Shown here: in pieces, positions 59,355 through 63,953 of the stretch
How the letters are laid out: each line of letters opens with the position of its first letter
Position numbering within the stretch: the first letter of the stretch is position 1
Assembly: GCA_004322535.1 (NCBI GenBank)
Contig: SCUZ01000048.1
Span: 1-64,000 of the forward strand
DNA: 64,000 bases
DNA from: Rugosibacter sp.
GTDB taxonomy: Bacteria; Pseudomonadota; Gammaproteobacteria; Burkholderiales; Rhodocyclaceae
Reading direction: 5' to 3'
Position numbers and translations under genes: made by a program
The notes under the pieces: model-generated
The model's input: the letters and a program-made list of their open reading frames with translations, nothing else
The model's database searches: none
What the model was told of the DNA's origin: nothing

Positions 59355-59768
59355 TTACTGAATGCTCAGTCGTTTGGCTTGCGCTGCCACTTTCTTCGGC
59401 AACACCAGCTCCAGCACGCCATCGTTGTATTTGGCGCTGGCCTGCGCTTCGTCAACTTCTTGTGGCAGCTGGAAGCTGCGCGAGATCTTGCCGAAATAAC
59501 GTTCGCTACGCAACACTTGTTCGCCTTCCTTGACTTCTTTCTCTTCACGGCGCTCGGCAGAAATCGAGACGACAGCGCCATCAATGGAAACGTGAATGTC
59601 CTCTTTCTTCACACCCGGAACTTCCGCATGAATGGCATAGGCATTTTCACGTTCTTTGACGTCAACTTTCAAGGCCGGTGCTTCTGTCTTTTCGCCGAAC
59701 TCAACAGGACGCACAAAAAAGCCGCGCAGCAAATCGTTCAATGGATCACGATATATCAGGTTGTTCAT
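59355..59768 (-). CDS. Small heat-shock protein (Hsp20/alpha-crystallin)
   Basis: A 137-residue holdase chaperone. The alpha-crystallin domain covers residues about 35–125: YAIHAEVPGVKKEDIHVSI, RYFGKISRSFQLPQ and the strand NDGVLELVLPKK. A sigma-32-type promoter precedes it (59826–59855), so it is heat inducible. Confidence 0.94.
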   Translation of the reverse strand: MNNLIYRDPLNDLLRGFFVRPVEFGEKTEAPALKVDVKERENAYAIHAEVPGVKKEDIHVSIDGAVVSISAERREEKEVKEGEQVLRSERYFGKISRSFQLPQEVDEAQASAKYNDGVLELVLPKKVAAQAKRLSIQ

Positions 59769-59825
59769 TTTTCTTCCTTTCTTGATTAATGGGTGACTCC
59801 CACCCCTGTGAGAGTCTTATGGCAT

Positions 59826-59855
59826 CTATATAGGCGCGCCCCGTCAGTTTTCAAG
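59826..59855 (-). promoter_or_regulatory. Sigma-32-like promoter of hsp20
   Basis: The minus strand reads CTTGAAA (59849–59855), 14 bp, CCTATATAG (59826–59834), near the heat-shock consensus. A roughly 50 nt leader follows, containing GACTC…GAGTC complementarity next to the AGGAAG ribosome binding site. Confidence 0.6.
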
Positions 59856-59876
59856 AGCATGTAACATGGGGCCGTT

Positions 59877-60446
59877 ATGACCCAGCATGAACTTTCAGGC
59901 GCTGTAAGCGCGCTGCGGCCCCGCCTGCTGCGCTTCGCCCATCTGCAATTACGCGACACCTCTGCCGCCGAAGATGTTGTGCAGGACACCCTGCTTGCTG
60001 CTACCGAGCGAGCCCACCAGTTTGCCGGCGCCGCAGCGGTATCGACATGGGTCTTTGCCATTCTGAAGAACAAAATCATCGATGAATTTCGTCGCCGCAG
60101 TCGTCAGCCGCAAGCGGATGTCGATGTTGAGCAGGAGCAGGGGCTTGAAGATGCATTGGAAGATCAATTCGATGAGCGTGGTCATTGGGTCTCGCATCCC
60201 ACGCCTTGGGCTGACCCGCAGGCTTCGCTGGAGCAAAAGCGGTTCTGGGCAGTCTTCGAGATTTGTATCAGCGGGTTACCTGAAAAAACCGCACGGGTTT
60301 TCGGCATGCGTGAATTGTTGGGCATGGAAACGGAAGAAATTTGTAAGGAACTGGGGTTGTCCACGTCGAATTGCTGGGTGCTCTTGCACCGGGCGCGTTT
60401 GGGATTGCGCGATTGCTTGTCCCGACGCTGGTTTGGAGAAAATTAA
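59877..60446 (+). CDS. ECF sigma factor of the bufferin-like operon
   Basis: A 189-residue ECF sigma-70 factor. Region 2 includes LRFAHLQLRDTSAAEDVVQDT and WVFAILKNKIIDEFRRRSR (residues 60–78); region 4 is GLPEKTARVFGMRELLG and GLSTSNCWVLLHRARLGL. It is followed immediately by a zinc-binding anti-sigma-like gene and then the Cys-rich peptide operon, suggesting that it activates that operon in response to metal or redox stress. The insert between regions 2 and 4 is acidic. Confidence 0.9.
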   Translation: MTQHELSGAVSALRPRLLRFAHLQLRDTSAAEDVVQDTLLAATERAHQFAGAAAVSTWVFAILKNKIIDEFRRRSRQPQADVDVEQEQGLEDALEDQFDERGHWVSHPTPWADPQASLEQKRFWAVFEICISGLPEKTARVFGMRELLGMETEEICKELGLSTSNCWVLLHRARLGLRDCLSRRWFGEN

Positions 60447-60644
60447 ATGCTGTCGTGTCGCGAAGAAACAGAATTGATGTCACAAAGGCTGGATCGTCCG
60501 TTGTCATTCGGCGAGCGATTCGGTCTGCGTTTTCATCTGTTATTCTGCCGTGGCTGTCGCGCGACCCAACAACATTTTGCTTTTCTGCGGACTGCTACAC
60601 GGGCTTGGCGAGAGCACCATGATGTTGATTCAATCCCGCGTTAA
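60447..60644 (+). CDS. Small zinc-finger anti-sigma-like protein
   Basis: A 65-residue soluble protein starting one base after the sigma-factor stop codon. HLLFCRGC fits the H-x3-C-x2-C zinc anti-sigma (zf-HC2) motif and the N-terminal MLSCREETELMSQRLDRPLS matches the family start. There is no membrane helix. It probably holds the ECF factor inactive until metal or oxidant releases it. Confidence 0.8.
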   Translation: MLSCREETELMSQRLDRPLSFGERFGLRFHLLFCRGCRATQQHFAFLRTATRAWREHHDVDSIPR

Positions 60645-60671
60645 TCATTTACAACTTTAAGGAGTAACACA

Positions 60672-61037
60672 ATGAAAAAGATGAATTCCCTTACCCTCGT
60701 TGTTGGGGCCGCTTTTGCAACGACCGTTTTCAGCACCGCTGCTTTTGCTGGCAGTAACCCTTTTGCCATGCAGAAGCTCGATAGCGGCTACCAGCTTGCA
60801 GCCGCTGATACCGACAAGAAAATGGATGGTTCATGCGGCGACAAGATGAAGGATGGCAAGTGTGGCGCCAAAATGAAAAAGAAAGATGGCAAATGTGGCG
60901 AAGGCAAATGCGGCGCGAACAAAAAGAAAATGCATGATGGCAAATGTGGCGCTGATAAGATGAAAGACGGCAGCTGTGGTGCCGGGAAAAAAATGGAAGA
61001 ACCGATGGAAAAACCCAAAGCTGAAGAAGCAAAGTAA
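60672..61037 (+). CDS. bufA: Bufferin/HvfA-like Cys-rich RiPP precursor (BufA-like)
   Basis: A 121-residue secreted precursor: signal peptide through STAAFA (residue 26), then a lysine-rich low-complexity core with six [D/E]GxCG motifs (Cys at 55, 64, 75, 80, 92 and 102), of which one is EGKCG. Such motifs are the modification sites in HvfA/bufferin RiPPs, in which DUF692 enzymes convert Cys to oxazolone/thioamide or thiooxazole and the product binds copper. AAGGAG ribosome binding site. It is first in a coupled operon with the DUF692 and DUF2063 genes. Confidence 0.85.
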   Translation: MKKMNSLTLVVGAAFATTVFSTAAFAGSNPFAMQKLDSGYQLAAADTDKKMDGSCGDKMKDGKCGAKMKKKDGKCGEGKCGANKKKMHDGKCGADKMKDGSCGAGKKMEEPMEKPKAEEAK

Positions 61038-61055
61038 TACAGTCAGTTTGTAGTC

Positions 61056-61913
61056 ATGAAATCCACTGTGATTTCAGGAGCGGGCCTCGGCTTCAGGCGG
61101 GAACTTATTCCCGAGCTGAAAGCCGGGGTGCCGGGCTTCGTGAGTTTTTTTGAACTGGCACCAGAAAACTGGGCTGACATGGGTGGTAGCTCAGCCAAGG
61201 ATTTACGTGCTTTTACCGAGCGCTACCCTTTTGTCTGCCACGGCTTGTCGCTTGATCTGGGCGGTCCTTCACCGCTGGATGAATCGTTACTCCATCGCAC
61301 CCGCAGTTTCATGCAACAGCAAGGCATCACGCTGTATACCGAGCATTTATCCTGGTGTGCGGATGATGGTCACTTGTACGATTTGTTACCGATTCCGTTA
61401 ACAGAAGAGGCTGTGCACTGGGTCGCAGGTCGCATCCGCCACGCGCAGGATATTCTTGGCATGCGGATTGGTGTTGAAAATGCGTCGACTTACCTCATTC
61501 CGCCGGGTGCAGAAATGACGGAACTGGAATTCATTCGCGCAGTGGTTACTGAGGCGGATTGCTTGCTGCATCTGGATATTAACAATATTGTTGTCAATAG
61601 CTTGAATCATGGTTTTAATGCCGGCGAATTTCTGCGCGCTTTGCCGCTGGAACGCATCTGTTACATGCATGTGGCCGGCCACCATGTCGAGTCGGATGGA
61701 TTGGTGATCGACACCCATGGTGCGGATGTTATCGACCCGGTGTGGCAATTGCTTGCCGAAGCATATGCGCTGTGTGGTGCTGTACCTACCTGTCTCGAGC
61801 GCGATTTTAATTTTCCTGAACTGGGAGTTCTTGGCCGAGAGGTCGAACACATCGCCACGTTGCAGGCGCAGCATGAAATGCATAAAAATAAAATTCAACG
61901 GGCCGTCGCATGA
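61056..61913 (+). CDS. bufB: DUF692 multinuclear iron oxidase (MNIO), BufB/HvfB-like
   Basis: A 285-residue TIM-barrel enzyme of the DUF692 family, related to MbnB. Probable metal ligands are in CHGLSLDLGGPSPLD, YTEHLSWCADDGH, GVENASTYLIPPG, HLDINNIVVN, MHVAGHH and DTHGADVIDPVW. It should oxidise cysteines of the upstream peptide to copper-binding heterocycles. Its stop overlaps the DUF2063 start by 4 bp. Confidence 0.92.
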   Translation: MKSTVISGAGLGFRRELIPELKAGVPGFVSFFELAPENWADMGGSSAKDLRAFTERYPFVCHGLSLDLGGPSPLDESLLHRTRSFMQQQGITLYTEHLSWCADDGHLYDLLPIPLTEEAVHWVAGRIRHAQDILGMRIGVENASTYLIPPGAEMTELEFIRAVVTEADCLLHLDINNIVVNSLNHGFNAGEFLRALPLERICYMHVAGHHVESDGLVIDTHGADVIDPVWQLLAEAYALCGAVPTCLERDFNFPELGVLGREVEHIATLQAQHEMHKNKIQRAVA

Positions 61914-62668
61914 ATGCGCGGCTTCCTTTTCAGGATTTTCAATTTGCGCTGGCCCGCCACCTGCGTCATCCACACCGTGTGCCGCGCCCCGTGGGGGTGC
62001 CAGCACGCCGCACGGATATCTATCATGGATTGGTGCGCAACAATCTTGAAGGTTTTTTGCTGGCTTGCTTCCCTATTACGCATGCATTGCTTGGCGTGCG
62101 TCGCTGGCAGCGATTGGTCGATGTTTTTTTTCGTGAAGCAGGTTGTCATACGCCTTATTTCCGTGAAATTCCGCGTGAATTTTTGCACTGGTTGCTAGAG
62201 GCGCCATCGCTACCAGTTACCTTTCCTGATTGGTTGCCAGAGTTGGCTCATTACGAGTGGGTCGAGCTGGCGGTTGATGTGATGGAAACATCGCCACCGC
62301 CTGAGTACAACCCGACAGGCAACTTGCTAAATGAACAGCCAGTGCTGGCTGCGGCGGCAATGAATCTCGCTTATGTCTGGCCGGTACACCGCATCGGCCT
62401 CGAGTGGCGGCCACGCAAACCCAGCGCGACGCATTTGCTGGTGTTTCGGGATGCGCATGAAGCAGTGCAATTTATCGCGCTGAATCCAGTCAGCGCACGT
62501 TTGGTGGTCTTGCTGCAAGCGGCCGAAAGCCAGCTTAGCGGCCGCGACGCTTGCCTGCAGATTGCCCATGAATTGCAGCATCCCGAACCGGAATTACTCC
62601 TCATGCATGGTGTACATTTGTTGAATCAACTACGCACCGCAGGTGCCATTTTAGGGAGCAGAAAATGA
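61910..62668 (+). CDS. bufC: DUF2063 partner protein (BufC/HvfC-like)
   Basis: A 252-residue protein. An N-terminal DUF2063 domain ([39 protein letters not shown]) is followed by a C-terminal variable part. DUF2063 proteins form complexes with DUF692 oxidases and present the peptide substrate, as MbnC does for MbnB. Overlaps of 4 bp at both ends link it to bufB and doxX. Confidence 0.9.
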
Positions 62669-63162
62669 CGAAGCTATGGGCAACTATTGTACGGTTGCTG
62701 GATGCTACAGGCGACTGGGTGAGTTTTTTGGGTTTGCGCTTACTTCTGGGCTGGGAGTTCTTTGAATCCGGCCTGGAAAAGTATCATGGGGATAACTGGT
62801 TTGCCGACATCCAGGATAAATTCCCTACCCCGTTTAATCTTATGCCCGTTAATGTTAGTTGGTCGATGGCGACCTGGTTCGAGTTGATCGGTGGTGTGGC
62901 ATTAGTGGCTGGATTGGGTACGCGATTTTTTGCGGTATCTCTTTTTGTGCTCACGGTCGTTGCAACCGCAGCTGTCCATTGGCCAACCGAGTGGCATACG
63001 CTGACCGAGTTGGTGAAAGGTTATGCCATCACCGATGACGGTCACGGCAATTTCAAGCTGCCGTTGATATTTCTGGCGATGCTCTTGCCATTGGTTTTTT
63101 ACGGCCCTGGAAAATTATCGCTGGATACCTGGATTTCCCGGCGTTGCCTGGGTAAGGCATGA
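62665..63162 (+). CDS. DoxX-family membrane protein
   Basis: A 165-residue inner-membrane protein of the DoxX family with four helices ([70 protein letters not shown]). DoxX genes accompany the DUF692–DUF2063 pair in bufferin/HvfABC operons. It is coupled to its neighbours by 4 bp overlaps. Confidence 0.9.
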
Positions 63163-63440
63163 CTACTGAAAAGCTCCCTAAAGGGCGCACCGCGCTGGTG
63201 ATACGCCGCGAAGCAAGTGCCCTTGGGGCGCGACAAGATGAGCAGCGGGATACACCGCAAGATGATTCATCTTGTTGTCCGCGTTGCGCGGCAAGTTTTA
63301 CCTGTGGCGTAGTCGCGGAGTGCGATACTTGCTGGTGCAAGGAATTGCCGCCGCTTAAGTCCGCCAAAAGGTCTGCTGCTGCTTGCTATTGCCCGCAATG
63401 CCTGGGTGAGCTGCTTAGCGCGCAGCCTCACCCAGCGTAA
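63159..63440 (+). CDS. Cysteine-rich CWC family protein
   Basis: A 93-residue protein. [20 protein letters not shown] and WCKELPPL are the Cys-rich CWC family signature (CPxC…CWCxxLP), followed by another pair CYCPQCLG. The N-terminal 35 residues are variable and encoded by a dispersed-repeat copy. It overlaps doxX by 4 bp, so it belongs to the operon, and its end overlaps convergent nudB by 26 bp. A metal role is likely. Confidence 0.8.
63190..63234 (+). repeat. Dispersed repeat copy m (long form, in the CWC gene)
   Basis: CGCGCTGGTGATACGCCGCG then AAGCAAGTGCCCTTGGGG, matching copy d; the AAAAGTCGG end is degenerate. It is read as [15 protein letters not shown]. Confidence 0.8.
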
Positions 63441-63855
63441 GAATTGCGTCGCGGTTGCTCCATGAAAAGCACGCTGCTGCTGCTTCTTTCCAAGGCAGCC
63501 ATTGGTAGGCCACATGCTCGTCCGGGGTAATTTTTATCAGACATTTTTCGGCGAGCATTAAGCTGAATACATGCTCGGTGTTGTGTGTGACCCCTGGCCC
63601 GTAACGATATTGCCACTCAGGAAATATTTCAAAACGATTGGTTTTCTGCCAGTCAAGGAATTGTGTAATCGGTGCTTGAATCCCTGTTTCCTCAAACACT
63701 TCACGCTGGGCGGTTAGGTTGAGCGGTTCATTATCTTCCTGGCTGCCCGTCACCGACTGCCAGAAGCCGCGGTGTTGTGTGCGTTCAAGCAGCAGCACAT
63801 CAAGCGCTGCTGTATGAATTACCACAAGCACCGAAACTGGCTTTTTGAAAACCAT
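63415..63855 (-). CDS. nudB: Dihydroneopterin triphosphate diphosphatase (Nudix)
   Basis: A protein of about 146 residues from Met 63855 (MVFKKPVSVLVVIHTAALDV). The Nudix box is GSQEDNEPLNLTAQREVFEETGI (its key residues G, E and REVFEETG are at about 36–58). NudB removes pyrophosphate from dihydroneopterin triphosphate in folate synthesis. In betaproteobacteria it follows aspS. Confidence 0.88.
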   Translation of the reverse strand: MVFKKPVSVLVVIHTAALDVLLLERTQHRGFWQSVTGSQEDNEPLNLTAQREVFEETGIQAPITQFLDWQKTNRFEIFPEWQYRYGPGVTHNTEHVFSLMLAEKCLIKITPDEHVAYQWLPWKEAAAACFSWSNRDAILTLGEAAR

Positions 63856-63953
63856 TATTTGAATTGTGTTCCGGGTTGAGATAGACAATGGGGAGGGGCG
63901 TTCGGTGAGGGTATCAGTCAAGCTCGGCTGGCTCTCGTCAATCCCCAATAAAC

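Follow-up and report, generated by a model that had tools for sequence, protein, structure and literature searches.

The first gene of a seven-gene operon in Rugosibacter sp. is predicted to contain the promoter of the genes that follow it. The operon lies in a 64,000-nucleotide stretch of contig SCUZ01000048.1 (hereafter the window) and is confirmed as real (Table 1). It encodes an extracytoplasmic function (ECF) sigma factor, a zinc-containing anti-sigma (ZAS) factor, a cysteine-rich precursor of a ribosomally synthesized and post-translationally modified peptide (RiPP), the maturation proteins HvfB, a multinuclear non-haem iron-dependent oxidative enzyme (MNIO), and HvfC, the membrane protein HvfX and a CWC protein. 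We think it probable that this HvfABC/HvfX operon is governed by the sigmaE/MseR-type pair at its head, with a sigmaE-dependent promoter within the sigma gene driving the anti-sigma and all downstream genes, including CWC. The sigma would be released when the ZAS thiols come under stress; it would then read the promoter in its own gene and yield a transcript for the anti-sigma, the precursor, the maturation enzymes, HvfX and CWC, while the sigma gene itself would need a separate promoter. Most likely, the sigma drives the anti-sigma and the bufferin genes and not itself, a negative feedback in which the response would be self-limiting because the sigma is not amplified. The precursor cysteines would become copper-binding 5-thiooxazoles, as in related EGKCG peptides.

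The predicted promoter comprises TGTAAG (60342-60347), a 16-nucleotide spacer and CGTCGAAT (60364-60371), falls in the 3' end (last third) of the ECF gene and ends 75 bp ahead of the anti-sigma start. Its motif was learned upstream of precursors that come first in their operon, most of these operons being arranged differently from that of the window. TGTAAG-N16/17-CG[AT]C[CT]AAT occurred in 23 of 52 such upstream regions, compared with 0.5 in shuffled sequences; for one of the 23 training sites (locus L220), the contig starts just before the precursor and the operon order is uncertain. The learned motif fits the meningococcal sigmaE consensus, GTMAGBWTT and CGTCTAAH separated by 12-13 nucleotides (PMC2893595), against which the window site reads GTAAGGAAC-N12-CGTCGAAT, with two mismatches in the -35 element and one in the -10 element. 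Scored with a weight matrix, the site at 60342 reached 21.2, the best value on both strands of the window, the next being 15.7. The bare pattern matched three times against 2.6 expected, so it is the score, rather than the pattern, that singles out this site. A sigmaE promoter upstream of the window ECF gene was rejected as a candidate, the best score there being 4.5 at a position just 17 bp before the start codon.

We next compared related loci. The order ECF-ZAS-precursor-MNIO-HvfC(-DoxX) was found again in related genomes and is therefore not a product of chance; the genome is close to Rugosibacter, its HvfB being 87-88% identical to that of L142. In 12 loci beginning ECF-ZAS-precursor-MNIO, the same place in the ECF gene scored 16.7-26.4, whereas upstream of ECF ten of these loci did not exceed 5.9, L221 reached 16.6 at -289 and L142 lay outside the comparison because its contig starts inside ECF. 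Among the distinct ECF genes collected, counting the motif as present at a score of at least 10 inside ECF, it was carried by all 25 sigma-first operons with a recognised downstream gene and by 16 of 25 ECF-ZAS pairs followed by unknown genes, but by none of the 23 sigma-last genes and none of the 17 without a ZAS gene behind ECF. A class-wide ECF search showed that most of the more distant ECF-ZAS pairs carry the motif, many without an MNIO gene in the 3-kb locus.

Two further promoter arrangements were seen. Five sigma-first loci (L311, L314, L316, L319 and L134) have two sigmaE-type sites, one within ECF and one behind the anti-sigma region (scores 22-28), and here the anti-sigma and the peptide may be driven separately. 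Six hvf operons without an upstream ZAS gene (L160, L166, L178, L189, L190 and L197) have TGTAACC-N-CGAA-like sites ahead of the precursor, which look like those of a different sigma class, perhaps of the sigmaF/NrsF type.

Selection on the site as DNA was assessed by third-base bias over 176 codon columns, with the gene set defined by gene order only and not by the motif. This is the clean version of an earlier codon test whose set had been chosen by motif score and which was partly circular. Across the sigma-first genes, codon 163, which supplies the CG of the -10 element, ranked first (G in 25 of 25 compared with 8.2 expected; z 7.0) and codon 156, the TGT of the -35 element, ranked second (T in 25 of 25 compared with 10.0 expected; z 5.5). 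Residue 163 varies among T, A, S and P while its third base is constant. Neither the sigma-last nor the no-ZAS set showed a third-base peak at codons 156 or 163, and codon 163 again came top among 24 more distant genes with a median pairwise identity of 41% (z 5.7). Synonymous-codon resampling, a further test of selection, gave p values from 0.0001 to 0.09 for 15 genes, the window gene among them at 0.03.

Several observations weigh against this interpretation. A single branch of the sigma tree parts motif-bearing from sigma-last sigmas; the 25-versus-23 contrast therefore does not represent many independent events, and gene order and motif perhaps changed together once or twice. A Fisher value for motif score by gene order was accordingly discarded as an independent statistic, and the weight of the promoter case rests on conservation within sigma-first genes. 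Across the organism's own genome the strict pattern is no commoner than its reversed control, and, with the pattern at chance level, the rest of the regulon is not readable. Among the 24 more distant genes, codon 156 (Cys) fell outside the top eight. Finally, the encoded peptide ICKEL-x-[IL]-S-x-S-N, conserved as protein, already favours the motif, with synonymous mean scores of 5-12, and for the window gene alone the resampling gave no more than p = 0.03. This last point lends itself to another explanation, in which the motif is a side effect of constraints on the protein and its codons, and a promoter upstream of ECF lets the sigma amplify itself and all the other genes, as in Neisseria, where a single upstream promoter serves the autoregulated operon, rpoE included (PMC2893595). 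We consider this improbable, given the low scores upstream of ECF in ten of the 12 sigma-first loci and the third-base peaks, which fall exactly at the -35 and -10 elements even where residue 163 varies.

On this basis, an intragenic promoter is favoured for the window, and it is likely that, in beta- and gammaproteobacteria, the codons for the DNA-binding region 4 of TIGR02943 (sigmaE/MseR) sigma genes contain a promoter recognised by the encoded sigma, switching on the anti-sigma and whatever follows, with the site absent where the sigma comes last. The new part is this sigmaE-type promoter predicted within the ECF gene and apparently spread over many families of the sigma group; we found no earlier report of an intragenic promoter in the TIGR02943 family in the open-licence literature. 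An ECF promoter survey confined to the sequence ahead of the sigma gene would overlook the site and presume positive autoregulation. If the prediction is correct, gene order sets the sign of the feedback, sigma-last operons amplifying the sigma and sigma-first operons the inhibitor, and the hvf/bufferin response is a natural pair of circuits built from the same parts in two orders. The same DNA would then serve twice, as coding sequence for part of the domain with which the sigma reads DNA and as a site that it reads. The promoter signature could also be used to find regulated bufferin operons, including those of Buf2, which the bufferin survey does not tie to a sigma (PMC12452194).

The regulators themselves belong to a known type. 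The anti-sigma has Cys4 and His30-x3-Cys34-x2-Cys37, at positions identical to those of meningococcal MseR (NMB2145; PMC2893595), and, as expected of an MseR-type factor, is a short cytoplasmic protein whose gene adjoins that of its sigma. Homology, gene order and the sigmaE-type promoter thus support a sigmaE/MseR-type ECF sigma and ZAS anti-sigma as the control pair. The original prediction, made from the window sequence, had named both regulators correctly and missed the promoter within the sigma gene. It had also presented the small soluble anti-sigma as a notable addition, which does not hold, because such sigmaE/MseR-type pairs are known: in Neisseria (PMC2893595) and Haemophilus influenzae (PMC7907618), operons of this kind are governed by sigmas whose ZAS anti-sigmas, MseR and HrsE respectively, are small and cytoplasmic, control by such a pair being described for Neisseria in a second study as well (PMC3240639). 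An ECF-like gene was found, in several orders, near 72 of the 80 HvfB loci closest to the window, although part of these 72 are short matches that may represent another sigma class.

The core of the operon is, on profile matches and layout, HvfABC/HvfX with an EGKCG-type 'oxazolin' precursor, a mostly known type. The precursor has a typical signal peptide (by eye) and six cysteines, each inside a [DE]G[KS]CG motif; its NF050137 match spans three stretches, and under the stricter HvfA equivalog NF050188 it stayed below the cut-off (20 of 95 bits). Alignment to solved structures paired HvfB with the MNIO 3BWW (E 1.6e-68) and HvfC with 3DEE (E 5e-15), and the HvfC/DUF2063 gene lies directly downstream of the MNIO gene with a 4-bp overlap, as in oxazolin operons. 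MNIO-PME1 enzymes put 5-thiooxazoles on EGKCG peptides, HvfA included, and copper binding by these cysteine-derived groups has been shown for related EGKCG peptides (PMC13097082). The precursor had no Pfam match, and so no DUF2282 (Buf1) match, and the MNIO fell below the cut-off of the MNIO_BufB model. Of the label 'bufferin/HvfABC-type' in the original prediction, the HvfABC half, in its EGKCG/oxazolin class, is retained and the DUF2282 bufferin class is not. All the open reading frames of its seven-gene order are present, each matching the expected family, and the 4-bp overlaps that it described from the DUF692 gene onward are real at three junctions (61910-61913, 62665-62668 and 63159-63162).

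The last gene required separate consideration. The CWC protein has no apparent signal peptide and, in keeping with PF14375, eight cysteines that are invariant among its aligned relatives. Its predicted structure has a mean predicted local distance difference test score of 60, a fold without confidence, and a search of its sequence against solved structures found nothing beyond short matches to Cys-rich proteins, zinc fingers among them. The comparison of CWC and MNIO gene positions covered 250 genomes from the order, 200 from the family and 229 from the class. In the family's 88 CWC neighbourhoods, nudB lies tail-to-tail with CWC in 66, an MNIO gene lies upstream of CWC in 13, and both occur in 10. 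The usual block is hemB-slmA-argB-hsp20 / CWC / nudB, with hsp20 and CWC divergent; in the window, the ECF...DoxX module occupies precisely the junction of these two genes. A Thiobacillus locus (L210) and another genome (L215) have argB-hsp20-ECF-ZAS-precursor-MNIO-HvfC and no CWC. The arrangement could have arisen by insertion before a resident CWC gene or from an old long operon with losses.

These neighbourhoods bear on what CWC does. That it is a true part of bufferin biosynthesis, for instance as a copper acceptor or as a metallochaperone serving the MNIO iron cluster, its coupling reflecting pathway function, would suit its eight invariant cysteines and several placements: of the 80 nearest HvfB loci, 10 have CWC as the closing gene after the hvf operon; CWC follows buf2-MNIO-DUF2063 beside nudB in L129-L133, where a sigmaE-type promoter (scores 11-24) precedes the precursor and the operon has no sigma gene; and in Sulfurisoma (L126) hvf and CWC stand together with neither argB/hsp20 nor nudB nearby. 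We regard such a role as unlikely. No MNIO gene lies just upstream of CWC in 75 of the 88 family loci, CWC was not detected in 70 of the 80 nearest HvfB loci (some of which end at contig edges), and no CWC-MNIO adjacency occurred among the matches listed for the class sample, on which class-wide coupling of the two was rejected. In addition, a genome of the same genus (G391; L136) has no MNIO match and no HvfC in the operon, and keeps ECF, ZAS, precursors, DoxX and CWC, so CWC is not simply a maturation gene, a role also weakened by the nudB synteny. In L136, the precursors are left without a maturase; this locus and L122 (G308) have a second Cys-rich precursor-like gene, with KCGA-type repeats and a signal peptide, between DoxX and CWC.

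It is somewhat doubtful, too, that CWC lies there by chance only, transcribed by read-through and contributing nothing to the sigmaE response. The nudB synteny is in line with this, as is the lack of a sigmaE motif ahead of 70 CWC-only genes (best score 11.1), but CWC follows two different bufferin classes, and L031, L087/L234 and L250 have ECF-ZAS-CWC without MNIO and with the promoter motif within ECF; together these recurrences exceed what chance placement would lead one to expect. Another CWC-like reading frame follows ECF-ZAS in L135. Taken together, the neighbourhoods suggest that CWC belongs mainly beside nudB, was resident there beforehand and became the operon's last gene, and that it probably serves the same metal/thiol stress rather than peptide maturation. 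This revises the view of CWC as a gene dedicated to the RiPP. The coupled last member of the original prediction is borne out only in part: CWC does recur behind sigmaE-type promoters, but it is usually a nudB neighbour without MNIO.

At the operon's borders, the ECF and anti-sigma genes abut (gap of 0), and CWC overlaps the convergent nudB-type NUDIX gene by 26 bp, an overlap absent from the original prediction. The short gap at 59769-59876 is common to the hsp20 promoter region and the ECF start, and contains by eye a sigma32-like promoter for hsp20 on the minus strand, CTTGAA...CTATATAGAT. The same genome has a second bufferin cluster (L137; C48:54000-66000), which looks Buf1-like, with a KCYGVALKGKNDC-type precursor, MNIO, DUF2063 and DoxX genes and a convergent ECF-ZAS pair of its own. 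The promoter motif is absent from the interior of this ECF gene; some 140 bp ahead of the precursor there is a weaker sigmaE-like site (13.6).

Table 1 Features of the operon and its flanks in the window
Feature	Position	Strand	Support
ECF sigma factor, Neisseria sigmaE / H. influenzae RpoE2 type	59877..60446	+	NCBIfam TIGR02943, 240 bits, above cut-off
Predicted sigmaE-type promoter within ECF gene	60342..60371	+	Top motif score, conservation, consensus fit
ZAS anti-sigma, MseR/HrsE-like, 65 aa	60447..60644	+	zf-HC2 and NF052368, both above cut-off
HvfA-type precursor	60672..61037	+	NF050137 HvfA family, 48 bits, above cut-off
HvfB, MNIO/DUF692 maturase	61056..61913	+	NF003818 HvfB family, 390.5 bits (cut-off 360)
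HvfC, DUF2063 partner protein (PME1/RiPP recognition element)	61910..62668	+	NF050145, above cut-off
HvfX, DoxX-like membrane protein	62665..63162	+	NF050144, above cut-off
CWC protein	63159..63440	+	PF14375, 28.2 bits (cut-off 24)
nudB-type NUDIX gene, convergent, outside operon	63415..63948	-	Profile match and neighbourhoods
hsp20 gene, divergent, left edge of the module's place, outside operon	59355..59768	-	

Among known systems, the HvfABC/oxazolin and fontiphorin operons (MNIO-PME1 captophorins; PMC13097082) share with the window an EGKCG-type Cys precursor with a signal peptide, an MNIO, a DUF2063 partner and DoxX, whereas the window places sigma and anti-sigma first, has a predicted promoter within the sigma gene and ends with CWC. 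With the bufferins Buf1 (DUF2282) and Buf2 it has in common secreted Cys peptides matured by MNIO and DUF2063 proteins, while its precursor is of another class; the bufferin survey reports sigma/NrsF genes for Buf1 and not for Buf2, and its main text makes no mention of CWC (PMC12452194). The Neisseria meningitidis sigmaE operon NMB2140-NMB2145 combines an ECF sigma, a ZAS anti-sigma with the same Cys4/H30-x3-C34-x2-C37 residues, DoxX and unknown genes, and its promoter consensus matches the window motif (PMC2893595). CWC is not among its six genes, and its sigma and anti-sigma come last, behind one promoter that also amplifies the sigma, in contrast to the sigma-first window; this sigma-last order leads to positive feedback (PMC2893595, PMC3240639). 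In H. influenzae, RpoE2-HrsE likewise pairs an ECF sigma with a 67-aa ZAS anti-sigma, and hvf-type genes need RpoE2 under hypochlorous acid (HOCl), although, unlike in the window, the sigma pair and the DoxX/hvf operon occupy separate loci (PMC7907618). A precedent for the predicted circuit differs in phylum and consensus and has no RiPP operon behind it: in Corynebacterium glutamicum the same logic has been demonstrated, a SigH-dependent promoter inside sigH driving the anti-sigma gene rshA and being proposed to end the response (PMC3489674).

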